DNA of 64,000 bases from assembly GCF_000337775.1 (NCBI RefSeq), contig NZ_AOLQ01000042.1:1-64000 (forward strand). The letters run 5' to 3'. Source of the DNA: Haloarcula vallismortis ATCC 29715. Its GTDB lineage: Archaea; Halobacteriota; Halobacteria; Halobacteriales; Haloarculaceae. Positions 1 to 46,190 of this stretch are shown one piece after another. The notes below the pieces were generated by a model, which saw nothing but the letters and a program-made list of their open reading frames with translations, was not told the origin of the DNA and made no database searches. Numbering within the stretch: the stretch's first letter is position 1; each line of letters opens with the position of its first letter. The position numbers and the translations under genes are program-made.

Positions 1-1
1 A

Positions 2-745
2 GGCGGCGGCGGATTCGCCGACTACGCGCTCGTTTCCCTCCATTGTCTCCGGATTTACCTCGACACGTCCTACCGGATGACGATCGACCTCCTGAAGGAG
101 ATGCCACAAATAACCGGGGAGATCGGCCTCAACGCGGCCGATCTCCCCTCCTCATCCACGTTGTGTAAGGCGTTCGACCGGATCAGTATGAGCGTCTGCC
201 GAGTGCTGCTGCGCCAATCGGCGCAGCTGCACGACCCCTCGAAACACGGTGCTATCGACGCTACATTCTACGAACGCTCAGCGGCAAGCCGCCACTACTG
301 CCAGCGAATTAGCTACCGCGTGCAGAAGCTCAAAGTCACGAAGCTCGTAGATACAGACTCTCAAGCCATCCTTGACGTTCATTGTTCAACGAACCGAGAA
401 GGAAGCGACGCAGACCTCGCCGAGCAGATCGCCCGCCGGAACGCGGGCGATCTGCGGTCTCTCGCCGCAGACAAGGGATACGACAAGCAATCGCTCCGCG
501 AATCCCTTCGTAACCTCGGGATTCGCCCGCTCATCAAACATCGTATCTTCGCACCCTACGACCACGCGCACAACGCCAGAATCGACGAACAGCGCTACAA
601 TCAGCGCTCGATGACAGAGACCGTGAACTCGGCTGTGAAGCGCTCGCTCGGCTTCGCCGTGCGAGCGCGTACTTGGTTCCGTGAGTTCCGTGAAATCGCG
701 CTGATGTGTGTCGTCTATAACATCAAGCGAGCCGTGAAACAGTGA
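2..745 (+). CDS. IS5-type (ISH) transposase, 5' end outside window
   Basis: This is a DDE transposase of the IS5-like haloarchaeal type and would catalyse movement of its insertion sequence. The reading frame is open from base 2 through an internal ATG at 77, so the gene enters from outside the window and that ATG is not the true start. Visible features are the acidic residue in 'GAIDATFYERS', a second in 'AADKGYDKQSLR', and a C-terminal 'RSMTETVNSAVKRSLG' block carrying the conserved E, followed by 'WFREFREIALMCVVYNIKR'. These are the usual DDE positions. The stop is TGA at 743-745. No frameshift is visible, but activity cannot be judged because the left end is missing and the DNA after the gene carries an inverted 5' fragment of a similar transposase. 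Confidence 0.85.
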   Translation, partial: GGGGFADYALVSLHCLRIYLDTSYRMTIDLLKEMPQITGEIGLNAADLPSSSTLCKAFDRISMSVCRVLLRQSAQLHDPSKHGAIDATFYERSAASRHYCQRISYRVQKLKVTKLVDTDSQAILDVHCSTNREGSDADLAEQIARRNAGDLRSLAADKGYDKQSLRESLRNLGIRPLIKHRIFAPYDHAHNARIDEQRYNQRSMTETVNSAVKRSLGFAVRARTWFREFREIALMCVVYNIKRAVKQ

Positions 746-800
746 ATTCCACTGCTGTATGGCGATTCAACACAGCCGTTGAGAACGATGTGCTTCCAGC

Positions 801-899
801 GGCGAACCCGCCGCTGGCGGGCTCGCCCGCTCGCGTCCCCAACGCTTGTTTGGCTAACTGCTTACACTCCTGAACGAAGTTGAGGAGCGAGATCTCCAT
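801..899 (-). pseudogene. Inverted N-terminal fragment of an IS5-type transposase
   Basis: On the minus strand an ATG at 899 opens a frame reading 'MEISLLNFVQECKQLAKQAL', then 'GTRAGEPASGGFA'. From memory this is the typical N-terminus of haloarchaeal IS5-type transposases. The resemblance stops at 'GGFA' near base 801, the same motif ('GGGFADYALV') at which the plus-strand transposase enters the window. The fragment therefore looks like the missing 5' end of such an element lying in the opposite orientation, 3' of the remaining gene. It is not functional as it stands. Confidence 0.65.
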
Positions 900-1059
900 G
901 CCAGGATTTCCTCCTCGACTTCATCTTCTCTAAACCACCGATTCAGACTCTCGCAGAGGCTTTTCAAAAAAGCAGATGGCTCCAAAGACACCGAATACCT
1001 AGACCATAGTTGTTAGAATATATAAATTCCGTTACCACTACTTCATTTTATTATTAGTA

Positions 1060-1247: not shown

Positions 1248-2651
1248 ATGTCTGAGATTATCTCAGTGAAGCCCGCCCAGGTAACGATGATTTTTGTGGA
1301 ATTGTTCGTTGCTGTGGTTGGTTTTCTTGTTCTCTCATCGTCGTACCCTCTTCACTGGCCATTCATATTCTTACTGTTGACACTGGGTGTGTTTCCATAC
1401 GCTTACGAGGGTGCTGTCGGGCGAATCGATCCATTTTCACCGGTTATGTGGTTTGCTCCGGTGTTCGCAATTGTCTACGGCATCGGCGCAGCTCGCCGAC
1501 TTCTGAATAGAGATTTCGTGTTTCAGGCGGATTACATCGTTACTAATCCGGAAACGGCGATTCTGAAAGTATTGATACTGGCGACAGTCGGAATTTCTAT
1601 GCTGTTGCTTGGCTATTACCGCCCGTGGGGACGAATACTCGCAACACGGGTCCCACAATTTGGCAGGGGGTGGTCGTCGCGCCGAGCTTGGCTGGCAATT
1701 ATCGTAACCACAGCACTCGGACTCTATGGCTTCTGGCTACTCTTACCGACATTAGGGGCTGGACCCAGGAGCCATCTGGCAAAAGGGAATTCTCGTCTCG
1801 CGTTCGTACTGGTGAATCTACTCAATGTCGCTTCAATCCTACTTCTCGCAGATGCGATGATTTCGGCAATTTCGTTTAACGACCTGACAGTCGAGATCCG
1901 CCAGCCATGGAAACTCATCGTTACAGTCCCTTTCATATTGTTTAACGTACGTCTGCTCTGGCTGCTCGGCGGGCGGGGGCGTGCGTTCAGTATATTTGTC
2001 GTCTGTGCATTCCTGATTCATTATCTGGTCTATCAGTTTTCATTGTTTCAGGGGATAATCATCTTCTTCGGTGTGAAAATTATCCCGGCCTGGGCCGCCG
2101 ACATTATGTCTGCTGCCGTGACACTAGACGTTGCAGACCTCGCGTACCACCTCCAGAACCCCCTCCTTTTCAGGGAGTCACCGACACGTCCGTTCAACAA
2201 CGTTGTCGTACTCATATCAGGTGTCCCGGAGACACAGGATTTCGTGTATGGCGAGACGTTCCTCAGCGCTTTTTTCGAAGTGATCCCGCTACAGCCGTTC
2301 CGGGAGACGAACGCAGTGTACAACGCAGCGTTCTATCCGAGCATCGCGGGTGATTACGGCGTACCCATAACCATGTTGGGAGAGCTCTATCTCAATTTCT
2401 GGCTACCAGGGGTCGTTATCGGGCTGTTGCTGGTGGGCGTCATTATTAGAGGGAGTTACGAGTGGCTGATCGTCCAGAAACAGAGCTACGCGTCAATCAT
2501 CATCTTCGCAGCGCTCACGAACGATTTCCTGCTAATGGGGAACTTCTCTAATTCGCTTCCAGGGACGGGAATGTTGCTTGTCCCGTTATTTTGTTGTTTA
2601 TATTATGTGTCAGGCGGATCTGGTTCTACGCGGTCCAAGCAGAAGACATAA
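1248..2651 (+). CDS. Wzy-like oligosaccharide repeat-unit polymerase, multi-pass membrane protein
   Basis: This 467-residue protein is almost wholly hydrophobic with about 11 predicted membrane spans. A large extracytoplasmic loop lies roughly at residues 280-385. The loop and following helix ('NAAFYPSIAGDYGVPITMLG', then 'ELYLNFWLPGVVIG') resemble the signature region of O-antigen/oligosaccharide repeat-unit polymerases. Such enzymes join lipid-linked repeat units on the outer face of the membrane. The role is inferred from topology, this motif and the neighbouring flippase and glycosyltransferases. Its DNA is visibly AT-richer than the ribosomal region, as expected for an exchanged surface-glycan locus. 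The start ATG at 1248 gives an N-terminus leading straight into a membrane helix. An O-antigen ligase-like role is the main alternative. Confidence 0.65.
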   Translation: MSEIISVKPAQVTMIFVELFVAVVGFLVLSSSYPLHWPFIFLLLTLGVFPYAYEGAVGRIDPFSPVMWFAPVFAIVYGIGAARRLLNRDFVFQADYIVTNPETAILKVLILATVGISMLLLGYYRPWGRILATRVPQFGRGWSSRRAWLAIIVTTALGLYGFWLLLPTLGAGPRSHLAKGNSRLAFVLVNLLNVASILLLADAMISAISFNDLTVEIRQPWKLIVTVPFILFNVRLLWLLGGRGRAFSIFVVCAFLIHYLVYQFSLFQGIIIFFGVKIIPAWAADIMSAAVTLDVADLAYHLQNPLLFRESPTRPFNNVVVLISGVPETQDFVYGETFLSAFFEVIPLQPFRETNAVYNAAFYPSIAGDYGVPITMLGELYLNFWLPGVVIGLLLVGVIIRGSYEWLIVQKQSYASIIIFAALTNDFLLMGNFSNSLPGTGMLLVPLFCCLYYVSGGSGSTRSKQKT

Positions 2652-2808
2652 CATTACAGTTCACGAGAGTAGACGGCCACTGGGATCCGATTTAGGTTTC
2701 TATTCCGAGAAAAGTGAGTGAACCAAAACCACCATCATCAAAGAACTCATAGCGGCACTTCCAGCAGGTTTATTCACCTAATGGAAGAATTCATATCGAT
2801 ATATCGCT

Positions 2809-3513
2809 ATGAACAACAAGATTAAAACGACGCTCTCGTGGTTAGTCTCGCTCACTGGGTATCCCAAGTCGGTTGTAAATATTATAAATAAGGCGCCAGT
2901 ATCCACCTCGGTTCATACAGGTACAGACGTTCAGATTGCACGCCGTTGCGAGCTTAGCGGGGACATACGACTACATGACGCGGTAAAAGTTGGGGAACAC
3001 TCAGTTTTGAACGGAGACATCGAAATTGGGAAACGTACAACTCTTAACGGCAGCAGTGATCTTCATGGAGAGATCACAATAGGAGATTACTGTGCTATCG
3101 CCCCACAAGTGATGTTAAGACAACATGATCACATGAGTAAAAAGCCATCGTTACAGGATCGATTTTATCGTGATATGTTCGACACTCGGCTGGAACGTGT
3201 TTCGAAAGGACCTATCACGGTTGGTAACGATGTCTGGATTGGCGCACGGGCGACAGTGCTGTCGGGCGTCACAATAGGTAATGGAGCTATCGTCGGCGCC
3301 GGAGCCATCGTCACGGATGATGTGGATCCGTACTCAGTAGTGGCTGGAGTTCCTGCAGCTCATAAAAAATGGCGGTTCCGAGAGGAAATTAGGGAAGAAC
3401 TTCTCGAAATTAAGTGGTGGGACTGGTCAGAAGAGAAAATCCAAGACAACGAGGCTTTCTTTGATACCGATCTGTCGAAAGTAAATAGCGTTCACGCACT
3501 CATCAACACTTAG
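2809..3513 (+). CDS. Hexapeptide-repeat (left-handed beta-helix) acyltransferase
   Basis: This 234-residue protein belongs to the LbetaH acyltransferase superfamily (maltose/serine acetyltransferase type). It probably acetylates a sugar of the surface glycan using acetyl-CoA. Isoleucine-led hexapeptides run from about residue 35 to 100 and again from about 135 to 175 ('[20 protein letters not shown]'). Between them a loop carries 'RQHDHMS' with candidate catalytic histidines H106 and H108. The C-terminal '[18 protein letters not shown]' is the typical family ending. The N-terminal 35 residues lack hexapeptides. It ends one base from the convergent sulfatase-like gene. The acceptor substrate cannot be read from the sequence. 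Confidence 0.8.
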
Positions 3514-3514
3514 C

Positions 3515-4696
3515 TCACTCCAGATAGCCGAGCTGTTTTAACCGTTCCCGGTCGACATCAGGTTCAGTTACACTTTCCTCACGTTCAAATTCTGGTATTG
3601 CTTCCATTGCGTCACTGAATTCGAAATCTGGATCCCCATATCTGATCTTTGATGGGAGATGAGCTTTGAACATCTCCCAGTAATTGCTCACTGAAAGAGT
3701 CCGTGCTACTGAGGCGTGTGGCCCCTTTATTAGATGGACCCCAGAAGCATAAACAAACCGATCAACCCAGGAGCCGCGGTGGGAAACGTAGCCGCCGTTT
3801 TTGTCCCATACGCCCCCAGCGACGTACGATTTTAACCGCTCGTATTTCGTTTGTTTCCAAACTTCGGAACGGAGTAACTGGCTAGAGTCAGGGGGTTGAC
3901 GCCAGATGTCCGAACCATCTACTTGTTTTGGCGGCTCCCGGCCGAGTGCATTGAGGACAGTGGGAACGATATCCGTCCCGGATAGAAGCGCATCCATCTC
4001 CTGGTCCTTCGGAAGGCCCGCACCAACGAATACGATCGGAATTTCTGTTAGCTCTGGAACCATCGGAATGGCATGGGTGAAAAGTCCTCCATGTTCACCT
4101 AATACTTCCCCGTGGTCACTAATGAATACTAATAGCGTGTTTTCTAATATACTGGCGTCTTCTAACGTGTCTATCAATTCAATAAATCGGTCTGCCGACT
4201 CATTAACACTCTCGTGATATAGCTCCCGAAGAGTTTCGGTATCTGTATATTCATCAAAAAAGGAATGCATATCAGGATACGATTCAAATGAACGGCCATA
4301 CGGGAAATGCCCCCCTCGGTCATGATACACGTAAATAAATGGAGAGGCAAGGTCATTCAGGGATTTTCGTGGTGGAGAGTTGATTATTCTAGGCTGGAGG
4401 TGGAATTCCTCGTCATAATCAAACACAGCATCTTCCGGGCCGGTAAACAGTGTGGGGAGATGTCCGAGCTCGTCTTCGAACGACCAGATATGATGGTGTG
4501 AGGGGTACTGCCCAGTCAGGATCGACGGAACGCTTGATGCGGTAAACGTACTAGGGGCAACCGCCTTTGCGGTAACCCCCTTACTCTTGACTGTGCTGGG
4601 TACTGAGTCATACCGAACAGAATCAGAAATGAAGATAACGACGTTATTGATGTTGTCAACAACAGCATTGTTCCGCAGAGGGTCACTTAGTGTCAT
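3515..4696 (-). CDS. Alkaline phosphatase superfamily protein, sulfatase-like
   Basis: This 393-residue protein has the sulfatase/phosphodiesterase fold signatures: an N-terminal metal site 'IFISDSVRYDSVP' (D25), the nucleophile loop 'STFTASSVPSILTGQYPSHH', and a C-terminal metal motif 'ISDHGEVLGEHG'. At the position where true sulfatases have the Cys converted to formylglycine (C-x-P-S-R), this protein reads S55-V-P-S-I. A serine nucleophile is likely, pointing to phosphoester transfer or hydrolysis as much as to sulfate ester cleavage. It ends in 'LKQLGYLE', common in haloarchaeal relatives. It lies 44 bases downstream of the flippase on the same strand, so co-transcription is plausible, and it probably modifies the locus glycan. 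There is no obvious signal peptide. Confidence 0.75.
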   Translation of the reverse strand: MTLSDPLRNNAVVDNINNVVIFISDSVRYDSVPSTVKSKGVTAKAVAPSTFTASSVPSILTGQYPSHHHIWSFEDELGHLPTLFTGPEDAVFDYDEEFHLQPRIINSPPRKSLNDLASPFIYVYHDRGGHFPYGRSFESYPDMHSFFDEYTDTETLRELYHESVNESADRFIELIDTLEDASILENTLLVFISDHGEVLGEHGGLFTHAIPMVPELTEIPIVFVGAGLPKDQEMDALLSGTDIVPTVLNALGREPPKQVDGSDIWRQPPDSSQLLRSEVWKQTKYERLKSYVAGGVWDKNGGYVSHRGSWVDRFVYASGVHLIKGPHASVARTLSVSNYWEMFKAHLPSKIRYGDPDFEFSDAMEAIPEFEREESVTEPDVDRERLKQLGYLE

Positions 4697-4740
4697 CAGT
4701 GTTTACCGACTCGGACAGCAGGAGTCATTAATCTGCTTAC

Positions 4741-6081
4741 TCAGAGGATCAAGAGGAACCACCCCGAAACAGGGATAGCAGTAAGAGTGATGAGAAGTAG
4801 GTATTTCTTCGAGAAAGGATGTGCACCTGTCCGTGTATACACTTGGTAGGAATAGAGACCGTTCAGAAGTGCGTATGAAGATGTCGTCGCAATGGCAGCA
4901 CCAATATAGTCAAACTGCGGTACTAAAATGATGTTTAGAATGAAATTTACAAGGGCTGCCACAGCACCATCTACCATTACTAAACGAGAGGCATCAATTG
5001 CTTTGACTATATCAGATGTTGGGCCAGTAATGGAATGGAAAAAGAACCCGAATGCGAGAATTGAGAGCGCGAGGCTTCCAACGGTGAACTCCGAACCAAA
5101 GAATAATGTGATAATCTCATTAGGGAAGAACAAAATCATGAGAAACGGTACTAGCGTTCCGGCAAGAACCCACTCTGTGACTGATTGATAATTTGATTTT
5201 ATTTTTCCATATTCATTATTGGCATGCATCTCAGAGAACGTGGGCAACGCTATGTATCCGACACTAATCATTATAATTGACAGGTGATGTGCAAGTGGAT
5301 ATACGACGTTATAAATTCCCACTGAAGCGGTTTCAGAAAAGTAAGCGATAATGAATGTGTCTGTCCCCGAATATATAACACTCATGCCTGCTGAAATCCA
5401 TAGAGGAAAGCTGTAACTGAGAAGATCTCTTCGTACTTTGATTGTACCAGAGGCCGAAATCAGTGGAGTCTGGCGGATTAGATAGTACAGTCCAAACGTA
5501 GCGGAGAGTACGAGTGAGGCCGTGTATGCACTGGCAATCGCGACTGTTCCTAGTCCAATTAAACCAAAAAGAGCGACAAGGATCACACGGGAACCTTGTA
5601 AGCAAATATCATCAATGAGAACTTTCGGGAGGGTCTGTTTGTTGCCTCGAATGGCGCTGACCGCCAATTGACCGATATTTGCAACTGGAATACCAAGAGC
5701 ACAAACACGAATTACAGGTACTAATGAGGGATCGTCGAAGATATTTGAGGAAAGAAAAGGAGCAGCAACTATCAGTGCTGTAGCAATACCGACGGAAACG
5801 GGAAGGATGATGAGACTGGCGGAGACGAGTATGTCCCGTTTTGTTTCTGGAGAATCGTATCGCGGTAGATAGCCGCTTACACCCTGACCGAGACCAACCA
5901 TGGTTAATGTTGACACAGCAGCTAGAATAGTCGTTCCGATGGACAGCGTTCCGTAGCCTATTTGTCCAAGATATCGGGCCGCAAGCACCGAAACTAGAAA
6001 GGATAGGGTCAATCGAACTGCCATTCCGACAAAATTTATCCCACCGCTTCTCAAGATATCCTTTACTCTTGAGTGGGCCAT
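4741..6081 (-). CDS. Oligosaccharide flippase, Wzx/MATE-like
   Basis: This 446-residue protein with about 12-14 predicted membrane helices belongs to the polysaccharide-exporter branch of the MOP flippase superfamily. It is expected to turn lipid-linked oligosaccharides from the cytoplasmic to the outer face of the membrane. The N-terminus 'GGINFVGMAVRLTLSFLVSV' followed by 'LAARYLGQIGYGTLSIGTTI' is typical of the family, and 'VTEWVLAGTLVPFLMILFFP' lies in the second half. It sits head-to-head with the glycosyltransferase operon starting at 6195 and ahead of the sulfatase-like gene. The gene is among the most AT-rich stretches of the window, suggesting transfer. A haloarchaeal AglR-type role in N-glycosylation is the closest known parallel. 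Confidence 0.85.
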   Translation of the reverse strand: MAHSRVKDILRSGGINFVGMAVRLTLSFLVSVLAARYLGQIGYGTLSIGTTILAAVSTLTMVGLGQGVSGYLPRYDSPETKRDILVSASLIILPVSVGIATALIVAAPFLSSNIFDDPSLVPVIRVCALGIPVANIGQLAVSAIRGNKQTLPKVLIDDICLQGSRVILVALFGLIGLGTVAIASAYTASLVLSATFGLYYLIRQTPLISASGTIKVRRDLLSYSFPLWISAGMSVIYSGTDTFIIAYFSETASVGIYNVVYPLAHHLSIIMISVGYIALPTFSEMHANNEYGKIKSNYQSVTEWVLAGTLVPFLMILFFPNEIITLFFGSEFTVGSLALSILAFGFFFHSITGPTSDIVKAIDASRLVMVDGAVAALVNFILNIILVPQFDYIGAAIATTSSYALLNGLYSYQVYTRTGAHPFSKKYLLLITLTAIPVSGWFLLIL

Positions 6082-6162
6082 ACGTGTGGTACTTAGAACA
6101 CCGGGCTAAGTCTCTTTTGAACTGATTAGCCGAGTTCTAAAAGAGGATGAGCACAAATAAGG

Positions 6163-6169
6163 TTTAAAT
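6163..6169 (+). promoter_or_regulatory. TATA-like box for the glycosyltransferase operon
   Basis: TTTAAAT is centred about 29 bases before the ATG at 6195. That is the spacing expected if transcription starts at or a few bases before the start codon. It lies in the 113-base divergent gap shared with the flippase gene. Confidence 0.55.
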
Positions 6170-6194
6170 GCCCGTCGGATAAATCACAGAACAG

Positions 6195-7295
6195 ATGGTT
6201 GACCGGGTCATTGCTATATGTCCCTCGACTAGCCAGGGGCTGCAAGACTACTCTCAGAATCTCTATGCAGAACTCTCCCAACGGGTCGTCGCATTCCGAA
6301 TGCTATGCAATCAAGATTACACCTATATAGACAAGAACCCACAAGCTACCCCGATTTATGGCAAGAATGCAATCACCGATGTCTGGCTGACAGTTGCCCA
6401 ACTGCGCCAATTCAAACCAGACATCATCCACTCACAAAGCACGAATCTGGGCCTGCTCTGTACGCTGCTGCTCTGTAAATTAGTATTTGACTTCGAACTG
6501 GTTCTCACTCCACACAGTTCGAAATCCCACTTCGGGCGACCGCTGTACGAACGGTTTCAGGTACAGATTTACAATCGTTGTGACGGCGTCATCTGGCACA
6601 CGGAACAGGATAAAGAGCGGATGGAAGCCGCCGGAGTTACGACGCCACAGGCGGTCATCGACCACGGGAGCTACGACTTCTACACGGACTATCGGCCTGA
6701 ACTGACACAGTCAACAGCTAGGCGAGAACTTGGACTCAACGAAGACGACTACGTGTTTCTCTTTTTTGGCTATCTGCGTCGTGACAAACGGCTTGACCTG
6801 CTTCTGAATGCGTTCGCACATCTGGACGACTCACAGTTAGCTAATGCGACCCTGTTGATTGCCGGGAAGTCCATCGACGACGACCTCACTGCCAGATATA
6901 TAGAGACAGCCGAGGAGTATGGAATCACGGACCACGTCGAGACACATATTGGGTTCGTGGAGAACGACGAAGTTCCAGTGTATTTCAAATCAGCTAACAC
7001 GCTCGTCACCCCATATGACACGATCTCGGAGAGCGGTGTCGTGCATATCGGCTTCGCGTTCGGTCTCCCGGTCATCGCTACCGAGGTTGAAGGGTTCGCA
7101 GAAACGTTTGAGCACGGGACGAATGGGTTGCTCGTGCCGCCGGACGACCGTTCTGAGTTGACTGGTGCGCTAAACTATTCCATGACGCACCACGCAGAGA
7201 TGCAAGAGATGGGAGCACAGAATCGAGAGCGGGCACAGGCGGAGGGCTGGCAGGAAATCGCCCAAGAGACCGTGGAGTTCTACGAGAGCCTATGA
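6195..7295 (+). CDS. Glycosyltransferase family 4
   Basis: This 366-residue GT-B enzyme of the GT4 family transfers a sugar from a nucleotide donor to the growing glycan in the cytoplasm. The N-terminal half shows 'TSQGLQDYSQNLYAEL' in place of the usual glycine-rich loop and a 'DIIHSQS' strand. The C-terminal half has 'LFFGYLRRDKRLDLLLNAFA', the usual donor-binding region, and 'SESGVVHIGFAFGLPVIATE', the EX7E-like region. The start is supported by an upstream TATA box. It overlaps the next gene by 4 bases (ATGA), so the three genes 6195-9921 form one operon. Donor and acceptor are unknown. Confidence 0.85.
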   Translation: MVDRVIAICPSTSQGLQDYSQNLYAELSQRVVAFRMLCNQDYTYIDKNPQATPIYGKNAITDVWLTVAQLRQFKPDIIHSQSTNLGLLCTLLLCKLVFDFELVLTPHSSKSHFGRPLYERFQVQIYNRCDGVIWHTEQDKERMEAAGVTTPQAVIDHGSYDFYTDYRPELTQSTARRELGLNEDDYVFLFFGYLRRDKRLDLLLNAFAHLDDSQLANATLLIAGKSIDDDLTARYIETAEEYGITDHVETHIGFVENDEVPVYFKSANTLVTPYDTISESGVVHIGFAFGLPVIATEVEGFAETFEHGTNGLLVPPDDRSELTGALNYSMTHHAEMQEMGAQNRERAQAEGWQEIAQETVEFYESL

Positions 7296-8458
7296 AACCG
7301 ACGGTTGCTGTACTTGCTGACAAAATCGTTCGGGGGGGTGGCGAGTCTCTTCTCACGGATATCATCGCCGCCATCGGAGACGAGGTAGCATTTAAGATTT
7401 GGTGTCTGGGACATATCGACGATAGTGTGCGTCCGGACTTCGAGAAACACGATATCGAGATATGTCGGGTTCGCGACGCACCGTACAGTTCGACAGAAAA
7501 GTACCAGCTGAAACCGCTCCCGGCCGTTGTCAGGCTACTACTAAAGAGTGATATTGATATTCTCCACGGCTACTCCCTGTATTGCAACGTTATTTCGCGG
7601 ATGGCGTCGACAGTCGTTTCGGGGACGAAAAGCGTCGGTCACCATCACGGCGTTGCCGACCAGTGGTCCATTCCACGGGTCGCGAACGTCCTTACTAACA
7701 GACTGTCTGGTTGTACTATCTGCGTCTCGGAGACAGTGGCCGAGGTGATTTACGGGCCCAGCAGCTCGATCCCTCGTCGAGTAGCAGGTAACAATATCGA
7801 AGTTGTACACAATCCAATCGATTTTGACCTCGTCAGAGACTCCAAACAGCACACACCAGAGGTTCTACAACGGTATAATCTTGTCAGGTACGACGACCTC
7901 ATCGTGAGTGTTGGCCGCCTTACGGAATCGAAGAACCATCAAACACTGATTCGTGCTGCCGCCAATATGGATGCGCAATATCACTTTGTGATCGTCGGTG
8001 GCGGAGACCTCAAGGCCGAACTGACGAAGACCATCGAAAAGTACGGCGTCTCAGATCAGGTCACACTCCTTGGACAGGTAGACCGTACCGAAAGTCTCGC
8101 CATCATCAACGGTGCGGACCTTTTCGTCAGCACCTCTATTAGAGAGGGGTTCGGAATTGCATTGGTCGAAGCGATGGCACTCGGCAAACCGATTATCGCA
8201 TCGAGTATCCCCGCGTATCGAGAGATCGGAAATGAAGATGTCATTAGCTATTTCCAACCACGGGACGCTGGGGCGCTATCGGACGAAATCCAGAGGCTAT
8301 CGGAGTCGCCGGCTTTACTAGCGCAGAAAATCGATGCGGCCCAAACGCAGGCCTCGAAGTACAGTGTTGAGCGGATAGCATCGAGATACCGAGAGATATA
8401 TAGTCAGCTTCATACAGATTCACATATACGTGGTATATCCACTGCTGGTGACCGATGA
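7292..8458 (+). CDS. Glycosyltransferase family 4
   Basis: This 388-residue GT4 enzyme is the second of the locus. 'DKIVRGGGESLLTDI' near the N-terminus is the acceptor-side glycine-rich loop. 'LIVSVGRLTESKNHQTLIRA' opens the donor domain, and 'IREGFGIALVEAMALGKPII' carries the classic EX7E motif with both glutamates. It overlaps both neighbours by 4 bases (7292-7295 and 8455-8458), so translation is probably coupled. The product should be a cytoplasmic or membrane-associated enzyme adding one sugar to a lipid-linked glycan. The precise sugar cannot be read from the sequence. Confidence 0.88.
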   Translation: MKPTVAVLADKIVRGGGESLLTDIIAAIGDEVAFKIWCLGHIDDSVRPDFEKHDIEICRVRDAPYSSTEKYQLKPLPAVVRLLLKSDIDILHGYSLYCNVISRMASTVVSGTKSVGHHHGVADQWSIPRVANVLTNRLSGCTICVSETVAEVIYGPSSSIPRRVAGNNIEVVHNPIDFDLVRDSKQHTPEVLQRYNLVRYDDLIVSVGRLTESKNHQTLIRAAANMDAQYHFVIVGGGDLKAELTKTIEKYGVSDQVTLLGQVDRTESLAIINGADLFVSTSIREGFGIALVEAMALGKPIIASSIPAYREIGNEDVISYFQPRDAGALSDEIQRLSESPALLAQKIDAAQTQASKYSVERIASRYREIYSQLHTDSHIRGISTAGDR

Positions 8459-9921
8459 CTGATCAAAACGTCGTTTTGATAGTAATGGATACGGCACGAG
8501 CCAGGGAGTGTTATGGACTGGTTGAGGACGAGCCAGCCGTCACTGATGAGGAAAATAGCCTCTTGTCTACTGAGTCTTTTACCAGCACCTTCACCTCGGC
8601 TCCGTGGACGCTCCCGTCACACGCGTCCCTGTTCACAGGGACTTCGCCATCGAAACATGGCGCACACGCGGGACACAAGCACCTCAACGAGACTCTCCTC
8701 ACTGTTCCTGAACTCCTCCAGAATCAAGGCTACGAGACAGTTGCCATCTCGAATAACACCTGGATAAGCGAGGAGTTCGGGTTCGGACGGGGATTCGAGA
8801 CGTTTTACAAGACGTGGCAGTACGTCCAGTCCGACACCGACCTCGGACGCATCGCCCGCCAAGAGGAGGGATTCGACAAGATACGAAGGGCAGGAAAAGC
8901 GCTGTTCGATGGGGACCCACTCACGAACATCGCAAATGCGGTCTATGGGCAATTCTTCAGAAAGACGGACGACGATGGGGCTGCCCGGACGAACGCGTGG
9001 ATCGAAGCCTGGCTTGGTGATAGAGACGATTCACGCCCATTCTTTCTGTTTGTCAACTATCTCGAGCCCCATCTAGAGTACCGTCCCCCGAAAGCTCACG
9101 CCGTTGAACATCTGCCTGCAGGCGTCACCTACGAGGAAGCGATGGAAGTCTCTCAGGACGCCTGGGGATACACCGCCGACACCGTCGAATTGACCGACGA
9201 GGACTTCGAGATTCTCCGTGCGCTCTACCGCGCGGAGATTGCTTACCTCGAAGAGAAAATCGAGGAAGTCGTCGACCTCCTCAAAGCCGAAGACGAGTGG
9301 GAAGACACCCTGTTCATCGTCACGAGTGACCACGGGGAGAACATCGGCGACCACGGTCTGATGGACCACCAGTACGCTCTCTACGACACCCTCCTTCACG
9401 TCCCGCTGTTCGTCCACGGCGGCCCCTTCGAGGAGGGCGAGATCGACGACCTGGTCCAGCTCGTCGACCTCCCACCGACGATTCTTGACGTGCTCGACAT
9501 TGACGCGCCGGCTGCCCGAGATCAGTTCCAAGGAATCTCGTTCCACCCCGACGCTGACGAAACACGCGAGTACGCTATCGCCGAATACATAGCCCCACAG
9601 CCGTCGATGGACGCCCTCGAAAAACGCGTCGGCGACCTCCCTGAACACGTCCACACATACGATCGATCACTCAGAGCCATCCGCACGGACCGCTACAAGT
9701 ACATCCGCGGTTCGGACGGCACGACGGAACTCTACGACGTCCAGGTTGACCCCGGAGAGACGAATGACCTATCCGACACACACGAGGACGTCGTCGCTGA
9801 TCTCGATACAACATTAGACGAGTGGCTTGACTCCTTCGAGCAGGCCGACCCAACTGGAGCGACGACGATGTCCGCGGACGCGAAGGATCGCCTGGAGGAC
9901 CTCGGCTACCTGCAGGACTGA
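8455..9921 (+). CDS. Alkaline phosphatase superfamily protein, sulfatase-like
   Basis: This 488-residue sulfatase-fold protein ends the glycosyltransferase operon. Metal motifs are 'VVLIVMDTARARECY' (D12) and 'VTSDHGENIGDHGLMDHQYA'. The nucleophile loop reads 'SAPWTLPSHASLFTG', placing T52 where sulfatases have formylglycine-Cys. Threonine nucleophiles are known in phosphotransferase and nucleotide pyrophosphatase branches of the superfamily, so a classical sulfatase activity is doubtful. The C-terminus has the 'RTDRYKYIRGSDGTTELYDV' segment and ends in 'LEDLGYLQD'. The DNA becomes visibly more GC-rich from about 9.0 kb onward, inside this gene, suggesting the right edge of a transferred island or a recombination joint. 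Together with the gene at 3515-4696 it gives the locus two such enzymes. Confidence 0.8.
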   Translation: MTDQNVVLIVMDTARARECYGLVEDEPAVTDEENSLLSTESFTSTFTSAPWTLPSHASLFTGTSPSKHGAHAGHKHLNETLLTVPELLQNQGYETVAISNNTWISEEFGFGRGFETFYKTWQYVQSDTDLGRIARQEEGFDKIRRAGKALFDGDPLTNIANAVYGQFFRKTDDDGAARTNAWIEAWLGDRDDSRPFFLFVNYLEPHLEYRPPKAHAVEHLPAGVTYEEAMEVSQDAWGYTADTVELTDEDFEILRALYRAEIAYLEEKIEEVVDLLKAEDEWEDTLFIVTSDHGENIGDHGLMDHQYALYDTLLHVPLFVHGGPFEEGEIDDLVQLVDLPPTILDVLDIDAPAARDQFQGISFHPDADETREYAIAEYIAPQPSMDALEKRVGDLPEHVHTYDRSLRAIRTDRYKYIRGSDGTTELYDVQVDPGETNDLSDTHEDVVADLDTTLDEWLDSFEQADPTGATTMSADAKDRLEDLGYLQD

Positions 9922-10018: not shown

Positions 10019-11083
10019 CTACAACTCTTCAAGCACCGCCGTCGCCCGCTCGACGGTCTCCGCCCAGTCGAACTGTCCCTCGATTCGCGACCTCGGATCG
10101 GCAATCTCACCGTCGAGCACCGTCTCTAACCCCTCGGCGAACCCCGCGATGTCCCCGACGGGAACGGTCACACCGCCGTCACCAACGACGGGCGCGACCT
10201 GTTCCAGATCGCTCACCACGACTCCGATACCTGAAGCCATCGCTTCAAGCACTGTCCGCGGCAATCCCTCAGACCGACTCGGCAACACGAGCACGTCCGC
10301 TGCTCGATACACCGCGGGCATCTCCTCATAGGGTATCTGGCCAAGAAATTCGACATGCTCGGCCGCGATTGCCGACTGAAGTGGCCCCTCTCCGGCCACG
10401 TACAGTTTGGCGTTACGCTGTTCGGCGAGTGGCGAGACAGCTTCGACTGCGTTTTCCGGCCGTTTCCCGTCGACTAACCGACCAACGAAGAGCACGACCG
10501 GCCCGTCGTAGTCGATGCGGTCACTTCTCGGCCCCTCTGGGTGGAATCGGCTCGTGTCGATCCCATTGTGGACGACCTCAATGGGCGTCTTCACACCGAA
10601 CTCTCGCACGCGCTCGCGATCCTCATCAGTATAACAGAACACCACATCGGCCTTATTGAACGTCCACCGGCCAAGCGTCCGGAGATACAGATCGAACACC
10701 CACTCGGGCGCCGTCTGTGAGTACAGGCCGTGATTTGTGATCGCAAGTGGCGTCTCGCCAACCCACCGGCCAAGCGCCGCCAGATTCGTCGAGAAGTACA
10801 GGTGTGAATGGGCGTGCACGACGTCGAACTCCGAACTCCGACGGAGATATCCAGCCAACCCGGGACTAATCTCGTTTCCAAGGGGTGAGGCAATCGAGTC
10901 GAACCGCCTAACCGTATATCCATCTCGCTCTTCGACAGCTGGCGCACTTGGGTCCCGACGAATCGTCGCCACCGTCACGTCGTGGCCCATCGCCGCCTGA
11001 TCTCGGCTCATCGCATGGACGTGATAGGTCCCACCGCCGGGTACCTCGGGATAGAGTTTCTGCGCGACACGCAGTATCCGCAT
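10019..11083 (-). CDS. Glycosyltransferase family 4
   Basis: This GT4 enzyme has 354 residues when started at the ATG at 11083 ('MRILRVAQKLYPEVPGGGTY'). That start begins the family motif directly and lies 2 bases after the stop of the upstream epimerase gene. A longer frame to 11137 would add unrelated residues inside the epimerase. The acceptor loop 'PEVPGGGTYHVHAMSRDQAA', the donor region 'VVLFVGRLVDGKRPENAVEA' and the EX7E block 'SRSEGLPRTVLEAMASGIGV' are all present. It is co-transcribed with the epimerase, on the strand opposite to the other two GT4 genes, and its base composition is ordinary for the chromosome. Confidence 0.88.
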   Translation of the reverse strand: MRILRVAQKLYPEVPGGGTYHVHAMSRDQAAMGHDVTVATIRRDPSAPAVEERDGYTVRRFDSIASPLGNEISPGLAGYLRRSSEFDVVHAHSHLYFSTNLAALGRWVGETPLAITNHGLYSQTAPEWVFDLYLRTLGRWTFNKADVVFCYTDEDRERVREFGVKTPIEVVHNGIDTSRFHPEGPRSDRIDYDGPVVLFVGRLVDGKRPENAVEAVSPLAEQRNAKLYVAGEGPLQSAIAAEHVEFLGQIPYEEMPAVYRAADVLVLPSRSEGLPRTVLEAMASGIGVVVSDLEQVAPVVGDGGVTVPVGDIAGFAEGLETVLDGEIADPRSRIEGQFDWAETVERATAVLEEL

Positions 11084-11085
11084 TA

Positions 11086-12072
11086 TCAGCTCTCCAGAAC
11101 CAGCGGCTCGTACCACTCCCGATTCGCACGGTACCACTCGACGAATTCTGCGACACCCTCCCGGATCGTCCGACTCGGTTCGTAGCCGAGCAACTCCGAA
11201 GCCTTCGAGCTGTCTGCGTGGGTGTGTTCGGCGTCAGCGTCGTGGCGTTCGGCGAACTCAATTTCCAGGTCCGGCGCTAGTTGATCCCGGATCTCCTCGG
11301 CCAAGGTCAGAATCTCGATGTTATCGGTGCTCCCAATGTTGAGTGCCTCGCCGTCGGCAGCGTCCTCAGATAGCAGCGTGACGTTCGCTTCGACTATGTC
11401 TTCGATGAACGTGAAGTCCCGCGTCTGCGTGCCGTCGCCGTACACTACCGGCGGCTCACCGTTCAGACACCGCGAGACGAAATTCGAGATGGCCATATTC
11501 GGCCGCATCCGCGGCCCGTACACCGTGAAGTAGCGTAACGCGACCGCTGGCAAGTCGTAGACCTCGCTGTAGGCGCAGGCGTATCGTTCGGCCGCCAACT
11601 TCGACGCACCGTAGGGACTTACGGGTGTGGTCGGATGTGACTCGTCGTAGGGGAGGTACTCGGGCTTGCCGTACACCGACGACGACGAGGCGAGCACAAC
11701 GCGTTCGATACCGGTGCCACGAGCTGCGTCGAGGACGTTCAGCGTGCCATCGACGTTGACGTCGTCGTACTTGCGGGGATTCTGAACGCTCGGGCGCACG
11801 CCCGCCTGCGCGGCCTGGTGGTAGACGTAATCGGCTTCTTCGACCAGTTCAGTAACGAGGTCGGCATCCCGAACGTCGCCTTCGACGAGTCGATAGGTGC
11901 CGTCGCCCTCGTCAGCGCGTTCGCGGCAGACTTCGACGGTGTGGTTCTTGATTCGTGTATCGTAGAAGGGGTCGAAATTGTCCAGCACGACGACGTCATG
12001 GCCGTCGGTGACGAATCGCTCTGCAAGATGGCCGCCGATGAATCCAGCGCCTCCAGTGACGAGTATTCGCAT
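11086..12072 (-). CDS. NAD-dependent sugar-nucleotide epimerase (UDP-glucuronate/UDP-glucose 4-epimerase type)
   Basis: This 328-residue extended short-chain dehydrogenase interconverts nucleotide sugars for glycan synthesis. The NAD-binding loop GGAGFIGGH is at residues 7-15, and the catalytic Tyr154-x3-Lys158 pair lies in 'SPYGASKLAAE'. The 'DNFDPFYDTR' segment (31-40) is typical of UDP-glucuronate/galacturonate epimerases, and 'RYFTVYGPRMRPNMAISNFV' is the substrate-side motif. A leaderless promoter lies just upstream. It forms a two-gene operon with the GT4 gene. Substrate assignment (glucuronate versus glucose) is uncertain. Confidence 0.85.
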   Translation of the reverse strand: MRILVTGGAGFIGGHLAERFVTDGHDVVVLDNFDPFYDTRIKNHTVEVCRERADEGDGTYRLVEGDVRDADLVTELVEEADYVYHQAAQAGVRPSVQNPRKYDDVNVDGTLNVLDAARGTGIERVVLASSSSVYGKPEYLPYDESHPTTPVSPYGASKLAAERYACAYSEVYDLPAVALRYFTVYGPRMRPNMAISNFVSRCLNGEPPVVYGDGTQTRDFTFIEDIVEANVTLLSEDAADGEALNIGSTDNIEILTLAEEIRDQLAPDLEIEFAERHDADAEHTHADSSKASELLGYEPSRTIREGVAEFVEWYRANREWYEPLVLES

Positions 12073-12338: not shown

Positions 12339-13802
12339 TTAGCCAAACATCTGGCGCATCATCGGATGCATCTCCATGAGTTGCTCTTCGGCGATCTCCT
12401 CGTACAGCTTGTACGTGATGGAGACCGTCAGCAGCAGCCCGGTACCGGAGACACCGCCAATGGTGCCCAGCATGTTGGCCATCACTGCAAGCAGCCCCAC
12501 TAGAGCACCACCGATGACAGTCACCTGCGGGATGTACCGCTCGAGGACTTTCTCGATGACGCCGACGTTCTGACGGAAGCCGGGAATTTGCATCCCGGAG
12601 TTGTGGATCTGTTTGGCAGTCGCTTCCGGGCCCATGTCGGTGGTCTCGACCCAGAAGACGGCGAAGATGGCGCCGCCGACCAGCATGACGAACAGGTCGA
12701 TACCGACCCGCGTCAGGATCTGCCAGACCGGTTGGGCCGTTCCTTCGAGCCACCACATCCAGTCACCACGGCTCTGAACGGGGGCAAGGAAGTAGAACAG
12801 ACCGCCGGTTGGCTGGCCGTTAGCGTACGTGCCGAGGAACGCCGGCATCGAGCCTAGCTGGGCGTTCAGGATCCGGCCCAGGAACTGGATGTTCGCCTGC
12901 AGCGCCCGGACGAGGATCATTGGCAGGACGCTCGCGTAGATGAGCTTGACCGGGAACCGGCCACGGGCTCCTTTCACGCGGGCGTTCGACAGCGGGATCT
13001 CGACACGGACCGATTCGGCGTAGACGACCACTGCGAAGATGAGGACCGTCGTGAACAGCCCCAGCAGTTCACCCTGGAGCAGCACGGTCTGGAGGCCATC
13101 AGCAGCCAGCACTGGTCCGGTACCGCGCTGGCCGGTGATGAACAGGTACCAGGTGTAGATGATCCCTTCGCTGTTCCCGAGGAACGGGGCCGTCAGGATG
13201 CCACCGACAAGTCGTTGGCTCACGCCGGCGACAATGAACAGGCCGATACCGGAGCCGACGCCCCATTTGGAGATGACCTCGTCCATGAACAGGATGAGGA
13301 CACCGCCGACGAACATCTGGCCGAAGATGAGCCACTGGACACCGGCCGTGCCGATACCCAGTGAGTTCGCGACCGCCGTGTCAGCCGGGAGGAAGCCGCC
13401 GGCAAACACCATCGGGAGCCCGGTGAGACAGATCATCACGAGCACCAGCAGCTTCTGGAGCCCCTGATAGAGGATCTGGTCGCGCGGGTCGTCCTGGGTG
13501 TTCAGCCCGAGCAGGTCCGCCCCACCGAGGAGCTGTAACACGATGGACGCTGTGACGATCGGACCGATACCCAGCTGCATGATGCTCCCCTGGCCGGAGG
13601 CCAGAATCGAGGAGAAGCGTCCGAACACCTGTTGGCTGGCGTCGATGTCCAGCCCGAACAGCTTCACGTTCGTCAGGAAGAAATACAGCAGGAGTACGCC
13701 CCCTGTCCAGGTGAGCTTGCGCTTGAACGGAACGTGTCCGTCCGGCCGCTGGACTGCGGGCATCCGGACAAGCAGTGGTTCGGCGGTGTCCTTCCAGCTC
13801 AT
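12339..13802 (-). CDS. secY: Preprotein translocase subunit SecY
   Basis: SecY is the 10-helix membrane channel through which unfolded proteins leave the cytosol or enter the membrane, with SecE and SecG/Sec61beta. This copy has 487 residues. The archaeal N-terminus 'MPAVQRPDGHVPFKRKLTWT' precedes the first helix. A plug region follows, including 'FGLDIDASQQVFGRFSSILA', then alternating hydrophobic helices and the basic loop 'VRVEIPLSNARVKGARGRFP'. It ends 'LMEMHPMMRQMFG'. As in other archaea it is the last gene of the spc cluster, 6 bases after rpl15. No adenylate kinase gene follows here. The next genes belong to the glycan locus, read on the same strand from their own promoter. Confidence 0.97.
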   Translation of the reverse strand: MSWKDTAEPLLVRMPAVQRPDGHVPFKRKLTWTGGVLLLYFFLTNVKLFGLDIDASQQVFGRFSSILASGQGSIMQLGIGPIVTASIVLQLLGGADLLGLNTQDDPRDQILYQGLQKLLVLVMICLTGLPMVFAGGFLPADTAVANSLGIGTAGVQWLIFGQMFVGGVLILFMDEVISKWGVGSGIGLFIVAGVSQRLVGGILTAPFLGNSEGIIYTWYLFITGQRGTGPVLAADGLQTVLLQGELLGLFTTVLIFAVVVYAESVRVEIPLSNARVKGARGRFPVKLIYASVLPMILVRALQANIQFLGRILNAQLGSMPAFLGTYANGQPTGGLFYFLAPVQSRGDWMWWLEGTAQPVWQILTRVGIDLFVMLVGGAIFAVFWVETTDMGPEATAKQIHNSGMQIPGFRQNVGVIEKVLERYIPQVTVIGGALVGLLAVMANMLGTIGGVSGTGLLLTVSITYKLYEEIAEEQLMEMHPMMRQMFG

Positions 13803-43873: not shown

Positions 43874-44065
43874 TTTTCCAGATATCATCGACCAGTAGTC
43901 ACTGAAGTCTCTGTCACGGGCCGCTCAGACGGCGCTATATCAGTTCAAGCAGTGGTGTTCCGAGCGAGCAGGTCGCTGCAGCGGCGAGTGGCGCTCAAAC
44001 GCCATTATGTTCGGCATGGCTGTTCCGGAGGTTATATTGCGGTCTTACCGGAGAATCGGCAGTGA

Positions 44066-44656
44066 TTAGCCAGACGAGAGGCCGCTGCCGGGGAACTGCT
44101 GAAAAACAGACTCAAAATCGTCAATCTCTGCGGCCGTGGCGTCGACTCTTTCACGGAGTTCGTGGAACTGTTCGTTGACAGTCTGGTACTCGTCGCTCGC
44201 TTCGAGTTTCGGCCTGGTTTTTTGCGTTTCTAGCGTTGCCTTCTTCGAAGCCACGGCGAAGTACTCCTGGACCTGACTGTCGTATGTGGTCCGAACAAGC
44301 ATCTCCGAGACAGTATCGAGGAGGTCCGCGCGGCTAACTGGCTTGGTCAGGTACTCGTCGAAGGGCATCTCGACGATGTCGAAGTCCGGGTCAACAGCCG
44401 TTACCATCACCACCGTCGGGTCAATACCCCGTTCTGCGATGGTATCGAGGACTTCGTCACCGCTCATATCAGGCATCTGCCGGTCCAGAAAAACGACATC
44501 GACGGACGCGTCGACTAACTGGAGCGCTTCCGAACCGCTGTGTGCGGTCCGAACGTCGTGTGCGGTCAGCAGCCACGTCGAATACAGGTCCGCAATATCT
44601 TGCTCATCGTCGACGACGAGTACCGTTGCTTCCTCCGTCTCACCTCGCTTTTGCAC
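44066..44656 (-). CDS. HalX-domain response regulator
   Basis: This has 196 residues from a GTG at 44656. A receiver domain spans about 10-125, with acidic pocket 'VLVVDDEQDIADLY', phospho-acceptor D58 in 'VVFLDRQMPDMSGDEV' and lysine in 'FDEYLTKPVSRADLL'. The C-terminal HalX domain (about 125-190, 'DSQVQEYFAVASKKATLETQ') is a helical output module peculiar to haloarchaea. There is no DNA-binding domain. No kinase gene is adjacent. A Shine-Dalgarno-like GGAGG lies 9 bases before the GTG, which supports this unusual start. Confidence 0.88.
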   Translation of the reverse strand: MQKRGETEEATVLVVDDEQDIADLYSTWLLTAHDVRTAHSGSEALQLVDASVDVVFLDRQMPDMSGDEVLDTIAERGIDPTVVMVTAVDPDFDIVEMPFDEYLTKPVSRADLLDTVSEMLVRTTYDSQVQEYFAVASKKATLETQKTRPKLEASDEYQTVNEQFHELRERVDATAAEIDDFESVFQQFPGSGLSSG

Positions 44657-44664
44657 TTGTTATC

Positions 44665-44670
44665 CCTCCT
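44665..44670 (-). promoter_or_regulatory. Shine-Dalgarno-like site before the HalX regulator
   Basis: Minus-strand AGGAGG ends 8 bases before the GTG at 44656, and is the main reason to accept that GTG start. Confidence 0.55.
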
Positions 44671-44849
44671 GTCGGCTGACGTACTGCTCTCACGATGACT
44701 TTCCTGAACAGCAAGATAAAGCTACCCAGCAGATTATCGATTCTGAGAATATAGTAGTTGCTCTGTTAACACGTTCGTACAGCTCTCCTGTCACAGTGTA
44801 GTGACTCATGCCAGAGATGTTAACATAGCGGCGACCGTACGCTGTGTGT

Positions 44850-45287
44850 ATGGTGACCGTCTCCGGACCGTGGACGCGCGCGGAGCTGGAACAGTTTCTC
44901 GACACGGAAACTGTGCCGCTCCGTCTCGGGTGCCGAACGCCCGCAGACAGGCCCTGGATGCTCTCGCTGTGGTACCGGTTCGTTGACGGTGTTTTCGAGT
45001 GTGCAACCGGGGCGGACGCGGCAGTTGTCGACTACCTCGACTACGACGCCGATGTCTCGTTCGAAGTCTCTACGAACGAGCCGCCGTACTGCGGCGTCAG
45101 AGGCAACGGGACAGCGACGATGACAGCTGACGAGGATAAAACGGTCCTCACCGACTTATTGCACCGATATCTTGGCGGCACTGACTCGCCGCTGGCCGAA
45201 CGGCTGCTTGCACCAGACCGCCGCGAGATACAGATCACGATTACGCCCGACAGACTCCACACATGGGACTACAGCAGCCGAATGTAA
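44850..45287 (+). CDS. Pyridoxamine 5'-phosphate oxidase-family protein
   Basis: This 145-residue split-barrel flavin-fold protein starts at the ATG at 44850 ('MVTVSGPWTRAELEQFLDTE'). The family pattern is visible in 'VPLRLGCRTPADRPWMLSLW', then 'YRFVDGVFECATGADAAVVD', and 'VSFEVSTNEPPYCGVRGNGT'. Members bind FMN or F420 and reduce or oxidise small molecules; some act on haem. The true substrate is unknown. It lies 12 bases before the next gene and is probably co-transcribed. Confidence 0.75.
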   Translation: MVTVSGPWTRAELEQFLDTETVPLRLGCRTPADRPWMLSLWYRFVDGVFECATGADAAVVDYLDYDADVSFEVSTNEPPYCGVRGNGTATMTADEDKTVLTDLLHRYLGGTDSPLAERLLAPDRREIQITITPDRLHTWDYSSRM

Positions 45288-45299
45288 CAGCCTGAACCA

Positions 45300-45731
45300 A
45301 TGGAACCCACAGACTCAACAATGGACACGGACCCAACAGACATCAAATCAATCGCGATAAACGCAACTGACCTCGTCGCAGCCATTGAAGCGACTGCCGA
45401 CGGGTCAGAGACAGTGTTACGCGTCACACCACCATTCAGCGGTCGGATGCGGGGGCGTCTCCACGTCGTCCAGCCCGACGACGACGACGAACCGATTCAG
45501 ATCGAGCCCGACTCGCTACTGGCTACGGACGCACCGTCGTATCCGACACCCGACGACACCGCCGACGAGCTTCGGAACGCGGACGACGAGACGTACTCGG
45601 TGGAACGACATCGGACCTACCACGAGCAGCGGCTCGCGGAGTGGCGGGCGTCCCTGCCGGACCACGTCGTCGATAGCACGACACTAGCGGGCACAGAACA
45701 CGACGTAACCATATCACTACTCGGACCGTAA
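45300..45731 (+). CDS. Haloarchaeal hypothetical protein
   Basis: This 143-residue acidic protein follows the PNPOx-family gene by 12 bases. Residues 15-55 form a beta-rich segment ('INATDLVAAIEATADGSETV', then 'LRVTPPFSGRMRGRLHV'), the middle is a D/P-rich linker, and the C-terminal 40 residues are helical and end 'TEHDVTISLLGP'. No membrane segment or cysteines are present. The start may instead be the ATG at 45321. I do not recognise the function; such proteins are conserved only in haloarchaea as far as I recall. Confidence 0.6.
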   Translation: MEPTDSTMDTDPTDIKSIAINATDLVAAIEATADGSETVLRVTPPFSGRMRGRLHVVQPDDDDEPIQIEPDSLLATDAPSYPTPDDTADELRNADDETYSVERHRTYHEQRLAEWRASLPDHVVDSTTLAGTEHDVTISLLGP

Positions 45732-45928
45732 TCAGTTGTACGCGCCAACCCTATCTGTCACCAAGATTGAAAGTGGCACAGAGTATCACACTATGTCTGC
45801 GCCGCCGATGAAACGTTTAACCACCGCTCAGCCGGTAATAAAATGAACCACTGGGGTGTCGCTGTGCGTGAAACGAAGCGAAACGGCCGGAAACCTCTAG
45901 AGGTTATAAGCTATCTCCAGTAGAAGCC

Positions 45929-46190
45929 GTGGATAGCCCCCCACATATCAATTTCGTCTGCATACGAATTACTCGCCCAGTTTGATGAGTCTATACCGGA
46001 GTTCGACGAGCCGTTCGTCGCTGCCGTTCGTGGTATCGCGTTCTGGACAGCAATTGCGCTCCCGTTTCTCTATCTCCCGCTGCTGATTACCGGCCTGCAC
46101 TCCGGGGCGACCCGGACCGCGTTCATCGCACTCGTCGTCTGTAACGCCGTGTCACTGCTCGTCGGCCACGCACACAGAGGCGACGATTAA
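45929..46190 (+). pseudogene. Small two-helix membrane protein gene with one-base frameshift at a C6 run
   Basis: The frame ending TAA at 46188-46190 reads 'ISISSAYELLAQFDESIPEF', then 'DEPFVAAVRGIAFWTAIALP', 'FLYLPLLITGLHSGATRTAF', 'IALVVCNAVSLLVGHAHRGD' and D. That is a convincing small protein with two membrane helices. It has no start codon of its own: going upstream the frame meets the TAG at 45921-45923. Removing one C from the C6 run (45937-45942) joins it to a GTG at 45929, giving 'MDSPHISISSAYELLAQFDE' and a protein of about 86 residues. A TATA-like TTATAAG (45904-45910) lies upstream. Recent inactivation, slippage-controlled expression, or a sequencing error are all possible. Confidence 0.6.

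Follow-up and report, generated by a model that had tools for sequence, protein, structure and literature searches.

The left end of contig C42 (NZ_AOLQ01000042.1) of the Haloarcula vallismortis ATCC 29715 genome raises the question of how a haloarchaeon comes to carry a Wzx/Wzy-type set of surface-glycan genes next to secY, and whether this set is a single acquisition or one version of a standing locus. The window analyzed here, i.e., the first 64,000 nucleotides of this contig, had been described in a first-pass annotation as containing a glycan island of seven named genes at 1248-9921, and all seven are intact open reading frames whose family assignments hold. They encode a Wzy-type oligosaccharide repeat unit polymerase (1248..2651, plus strand; TIGR04370), a hexapeptide-repeat O-acyltransferase (2809..3513, plus strand; PF00132, 67.8 bits), AP-superfamily enzyme 1 (3515..4696, minus strand; PF00884, 71.6 bits), a Wzx-type flippase with approx. 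10 transmembrane segments (4741..6081, minus strand; PF01943, 99.8 bits, with PF13440 and MurJ matches), the GT4 glycosyltransferases GTa (6195..7295, plus strand; PF00534, 93.2 bits) and GTb (7292..8458, plus strand; PF00534, 121.8 bits), and AP-superfamily enzyme 2 (8455..9921, plus strand; PF00884, 125.9 bits); GTa and GTb overlap by 4 nt, as do GTb and AP enzyme 2. The island is, however, larger than this interval. A third GT4 glycosyltransferase, GTc (10019..11092, minus strand; PF13692, 102.1 bits), which is convergent with AP enzyme 2, and an NAD-dependent sugar epimerase/dehydratase (11086..12072, minus strand; PF16363, 231.9 bits, and PF01370, 222.6 bits) also belong to it and form an operon that reads away from secY. 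The epimerase gene marks the secY-proximal edge of the island, and the locus runs to within approx. 10 nt of the stop codon of secY (12339..13802, minus strand), a conserved border gene found in 32/32 congeners. All nine glycan genes are full-length, and several overlap by 4-7 nt in operon order.

The earlier observation that this DNA is poorer in GC is borne out. In 1-kb intervals, GC amounts to 0.45-0.54 across 1-9 kb versus 0.56-0.69 in all intervals past 13 kb; the AT-rich stretch itself covers approx. 1.2-9.5 kb, and the surrounding GC is approx. 0.63. GC3 is lowered as well, with values of 0.41-0.62 from Wzy through GTb (the flippase being lowest, at 0.41), intermediate values of 0.69-0.75 for AP enzyme 2, GTc, and the epimerase, and 0.83 for secY. 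The AP enzymes and glycosyltransferases contain 12-21% Asp+Glu and are thus acidic and halophile-like, so that low GC alone is no pointer to a bacterial donor; a halophilic donor suits the acidic island proteins better than a bacterial one. A second, smaller GC dip (0.557-0.576) lies at 44000-46000 of the window.

The left edge of the island had been reported to carry insertion sequence debris, and such debris is real: an IS5-family transposase gene (1..745, plus strand; NCBIfam NF033579, 209 bits, profile positions 64-289), the frame of which is open from an ATG at 77 upstream to base 2, is accompanied by a second IS5-type fragment (785..905, no strand assigned) that shares 84% identity over approx. 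100 bp with an IS5 element on contig C56 of the same genome. However, base 1 of the window is the start of C42, and the transposase frame exits there. Since the contig starts inside the IS5 element, this edge is an assembly break and not the end of the island. At the opposite border, the compared congeners cease to resemble this genome in nucleotide sequence 0-10 nt beyond the stop codon of secY (12,339). The far border in relatives consists of an HTH_10 regulator gene and, after it, the gene for a 567-aa protein; a DUF4330/170-aa pair often comes before them. The corresponding Har. vallismortis genes (DUF4330, HTH_10, and 567-aa) lie at the beginning of contig C67 (L073), where they adjoin IS5 and integrase fragments (the latter at 918-1274 of L073), and the HTH_10 and 567-aa genes are 80-90% and 76-87% identical, respectively, between C67 and eight congeners. 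From synteny, C42 and C67 can be inferred to join through the island. Contig C56 was also considered as the continuation, which is not supported, since the far border lies on C67; positions 78000-88291 of C56 (L072) hold an AT-rich glycan-type cluster (GC approx. 0.50) with a GT4 homologue and an IS5 element at the contig end.

Replacement of the secY flank between Haloarcula species, which the first-pass annotation had named as support for transfer, is evident from the eight congeners in which both borders are visible, as they hold different AT-rich islands. The site between secY and HTH_10 spans 16.5-54.8 kb in these genomes and has a GC of 0.505-0.550, with right flanks of 0.60-0.67. Most species pairs have zero to two island genes in common at ≥60% identity, while the right-flank genes in common number 7-14 of about 14; the exceptions to low island sharing are one pair, G003/G031, and the larger, rearranged region of G028. 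In particular, G003 and G024 show 95-97% nucleotide identity in both flanks and no common island gene above approx. 34%, and their alignment ends 3 nt past secY and restarts at the HTH_10 gene, whereas the more distant pair G003/G031 has 13 of 14 island genes in common. The combination of like flanks and wholly different islands in the near-sisters G003 and G024 indicates that contents are swapped as blocks. Moreover, G028 carries a second, partial secY followed by a 913-bp epimerase region 81.6% identical to that of Har. vallismortis, the arrangement that entry of a block through recombination inside secY would be expected to leave. Sharp conserved borders, non-homologous interiors, and atypical composition characterize the site as a hypervariable island.

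Some further observations concern secY itself. The partial secY of G028 (C1:1843300-1863238, L048) is separated from the intact copy by about 7.5 kb, and the DUF4330 pair, normally a far-border marker, is found directly behind the intact secY in what appears to be a record of block insertion. Outside the core clade, the distant congeners inspected mostly have normal-GC genes after secY; G018, also outside this clade, again carries glycan genes there. In 5/32 Haloarcula genomes, smaller contigs carry another secY copy that shares 81-83% identity with the chromosomal gene (L167-L172; G003:C30, G008:C48, G015:C4, G024:C6, and G030:C4). The neighborhoods of these copies are partly conserved, and G015 has an additional broken copy. 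Second secY copies on plasmid-like contigs were considered as island carriers and rejected, as no relatives of the glycan genes of the window lie beside them.

A Wzx-type flippase and a Wzy-type polymerase thus lie within one cluster. The Wzy protein is polytopic, with approx. nine transmembrane segments by hydropathy, and scores marginally above the TIGR04370 cut-off (42.1 bits against 40); the same family is matched by all nine aligned archaeal relatives, and Arg R243 is invariant in nine sequences. Its structural model (pLDDT 66) gave no PDB match at E≤0.001. Neither uniform presence nor normal composition, which would have spoken against the earlier proposal, was found, as the window's own Wzy occurs in 0/31 other congeneric genomes. 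Wzy relatives are present in 8/391 Halobacteria including Har. vallismortis, the other seven being 22-33% identical, and a degenerate-pattern scan of 84,980 genomes confirmed no deep homologues. Relatives of the flippase, with a best identity of 44%, are found in 370/391 Halobacteria. A plasmid origin was considered and rejected: Wzy has no PLSDB match, and GTa has only distant ones (about 26-34%). Among the visible genes of the island, which is cut by the contig start, there is no initiating phosphoglycosyltransferase and no Wzz/Wzc-type co-polymerase.

The view that a Wzy pathway makes this DNA unusual is not supported, as other Wzy-type genes occupy the same site in five congeners: another TIGR04370 gene in G028 and PF04932 genes (polymerase or ligase; Wzy_C) in G004, G007, G014, and G025. 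Flippase families are encoded there in G004, G007, G008, G024, G030, and G031. Moreover, a 429-aa protein of G030 shows a moderate match to the Wzy profile (probability 85), and a 468-aa protein of G008 shows none. The islands of G003, G024, and G031 encode GT-C/PMT-like membrane proteins and no recognized Wzy; the 443-aa protein of G031 and the 452-aa protein of G003 were considered as Wzy candidates and rejected, because they match no Wzy family and carry a PMT-like DDS motif. Islands of the Wzx/Wzy type are therefore frequent, but not universal, at the secY site. Predictions of archaeal Wzy homologues date back to 2015 (arCOG03206; PMC5898192). Like the Wzy of the window, arCOG03206 proteins (e.g., MJ0420) are predicted archaeal O-antigen-polymerase-type membrane proteins, but, set beside it by description, they form an ancestral, conserved family with other neighbors (PMC5898192).

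The two AP-superfamily enzymes match the Sulfatase family (PF00884). The predicted fold of AP enzyme 2 is S1-sulfatase-like (Foldseek E 7e-21 to S1 sulfatases). Instead of the S1 sulfatase signature C/S-x-P-x-R, it has Thr52 and His56, which align opposite the FGly Cys54 and the motif Arg of choline sulfatase; AP enzyme 1 likewise has Thr at the nucleophile position. Residues T52, D12, D292, and H293 are invariant in 13 sequences, namely AP enzyme 2, eleven haloarchaeal homologues, and AP enzyme 1. Superfamily members that act on phosphate esters (NPP, EptA, LtaS) typically use a Thr nucleophile, which rules out formylglycine chemistry. With Thr where sulfatases need Cys or Ser, both proteins are probably phosphate-ester enzymes rather than sulfatases. 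Neither has a transmembrane segment (by hydropathy) or a signal peptide (by eye), which makes action in the cytosol likely. The convergent AP enzyme 2/GTc pair recurs at the secY site of G004, G008, G018, and G024 and also, away from secY, in glycan loci of other families (L069, L070, and L071); given this recurrence across loci, the pair looks like a mobile module. In G006 (L175), the module is located away from secY, with an 81% identical epimerase nearby.

The explanation that accounts best for these findings, and that is held to be probable, is that Haloarcula has an exchangeable capsule/EPS locus between secY and a conserved HTH_10-type regulator gene, and that the island is its allele in Har. 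vallismortis. A scheme of its sugar chemistry can be proposed from gene content. The epimerase would supply a sugar nucleotide, and the GT4 enzymes, working at the inner face of the membrane, would assemble a lipid-carrier-bound oligosaccharide repeat unit, which the hexapeptide enzyme may acylate. The Wzx-type flippase would then transfer the unit to the outer side, and the Wzy-type enzyme would join repeat units into a chain; the substrates of the two probably cytosolic AP-superfamily enzymes may be phosphate-ester intermediates or substituents. Recombination in the conserved flanks would swap alleles blockwise.

The product might instead be attached to S-layer or archaellum proteins as an N- or O-linked glycan, with the flippase passing the lipid-linked oligosaccharide to AglB and the 'Wzy' acting as a ligase or as an extender of protein glycans. 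Haloarchaeal N-glycosylation loci are variable too, as illustrated by the approx. 37-kb divergent aglB region of Halorubrum lacusprofundi (PMC6011602), and PF04932, found at congener sites, spans ligases as well as polymerases. However, the visible locus contains no oligosaccharyltransferase gene, TIGR04370 is not an O-antigen ligase family, and the aglB homologue of Har. hispanica lies in a separate cluster, HAH_1202-1214 (PMC9943897), which together render protein glycosylation an unlikely role.

Two other explanations concern the history of the DNA rather than its product. The low GC and GC3 and the IS5 debris at the left edge would suit a one-off, recent horizontal acquisition of AT-rich DNA via insertion sequences at a place with no standing locus. 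This is contradicted by the different AT-rich glycan islands that eight congeners hold at the same site within fixed borders, and no insertion sequence is found at the secY border; such a transfer is very improbable. Of the first-pass proposal of a transferred, unusual cluster, the species-specific AT-rich glycan island stands, but one lone transfer does not. It is scarcely credible that the island is decaying and non-functional, retained by chance beside secY: insertion sequences do lie where the contig ends, and the far border on C67 has IS5 and integrase fragments beside it, but the nine glycan genes are complete and in overlapping operon order, and the AP enzyme catalytic residues are invariant. 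An exchangeable capsule/EPS locus thus remains the preferred reading. It could be taken further, to a serotype-like capsule locus that combines archaeal Wzy polymerization, antigen switching by homologous recombination at secY/HTH_10, and a Thr-type, AP-enzyme, phosphate-based glycan chemistry unlike that of bacterial capsules; in this full form, the proposal is speculative and rather doubtful.

In bacterial K/O and cps loci, fixed conserved flanks enclose an interchangeable low-GC interior, and alleles are swapped between close relatives. The secY locus resembles bacterial Wzx/Wzy capsule/O-antigen loci in that a flippase, a polymerase, glycosyltransferases, and an acyltransferase lie within fixed flanks. 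It differs in its archaeal host, its secY/HTH_10 borders, its AP-superfamily enzymes devoid of signal peptides, and a visible part without initiating transferase or Wzz/Wzc. Among haloarchaea, GI1 of Haloquadratum walsbyi is likewise a hypervariable surface island, diversified through homologous recombination and mobile elements, but it encodes mainly S-layer/surface glycoproteins, whereas the secY locus encodes glycan assembly (PMC4535781). In the same genus, the acidic EPS cluster HAH_1661-HAH_1667 of Haloarcula hispanica, likened here by gene list, contains glycosyltransferases, a polysaccharide biosynthesis protein, and an 'arylsulfatase A family' gene, and deletion of two of its glycosyltransferase genes abolishes EPS; no polymerase is named there (PMC5467301). 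Exchangeable haloarchaeal surface islands and glycan loci, a similar Haloarcula EPS gene list, and archaeal Wzy predictions are therefore already known; no description of the secY-linked locus was found in the full text of open-licence papers. As a gene-knockout system works in Har. hispanica (PMC5467301), Wzy-type polymerization in archaea becomes testable in a genus with gene knockouts. Surface glycans determine how a cell is recognized by viruses and mating partners, and, if the reading as an exchangeable locus is true, fixed borders with swappable Wzx/Wzy-type contents would represent the antigen-switching logic of bacterial capsules in archaea.
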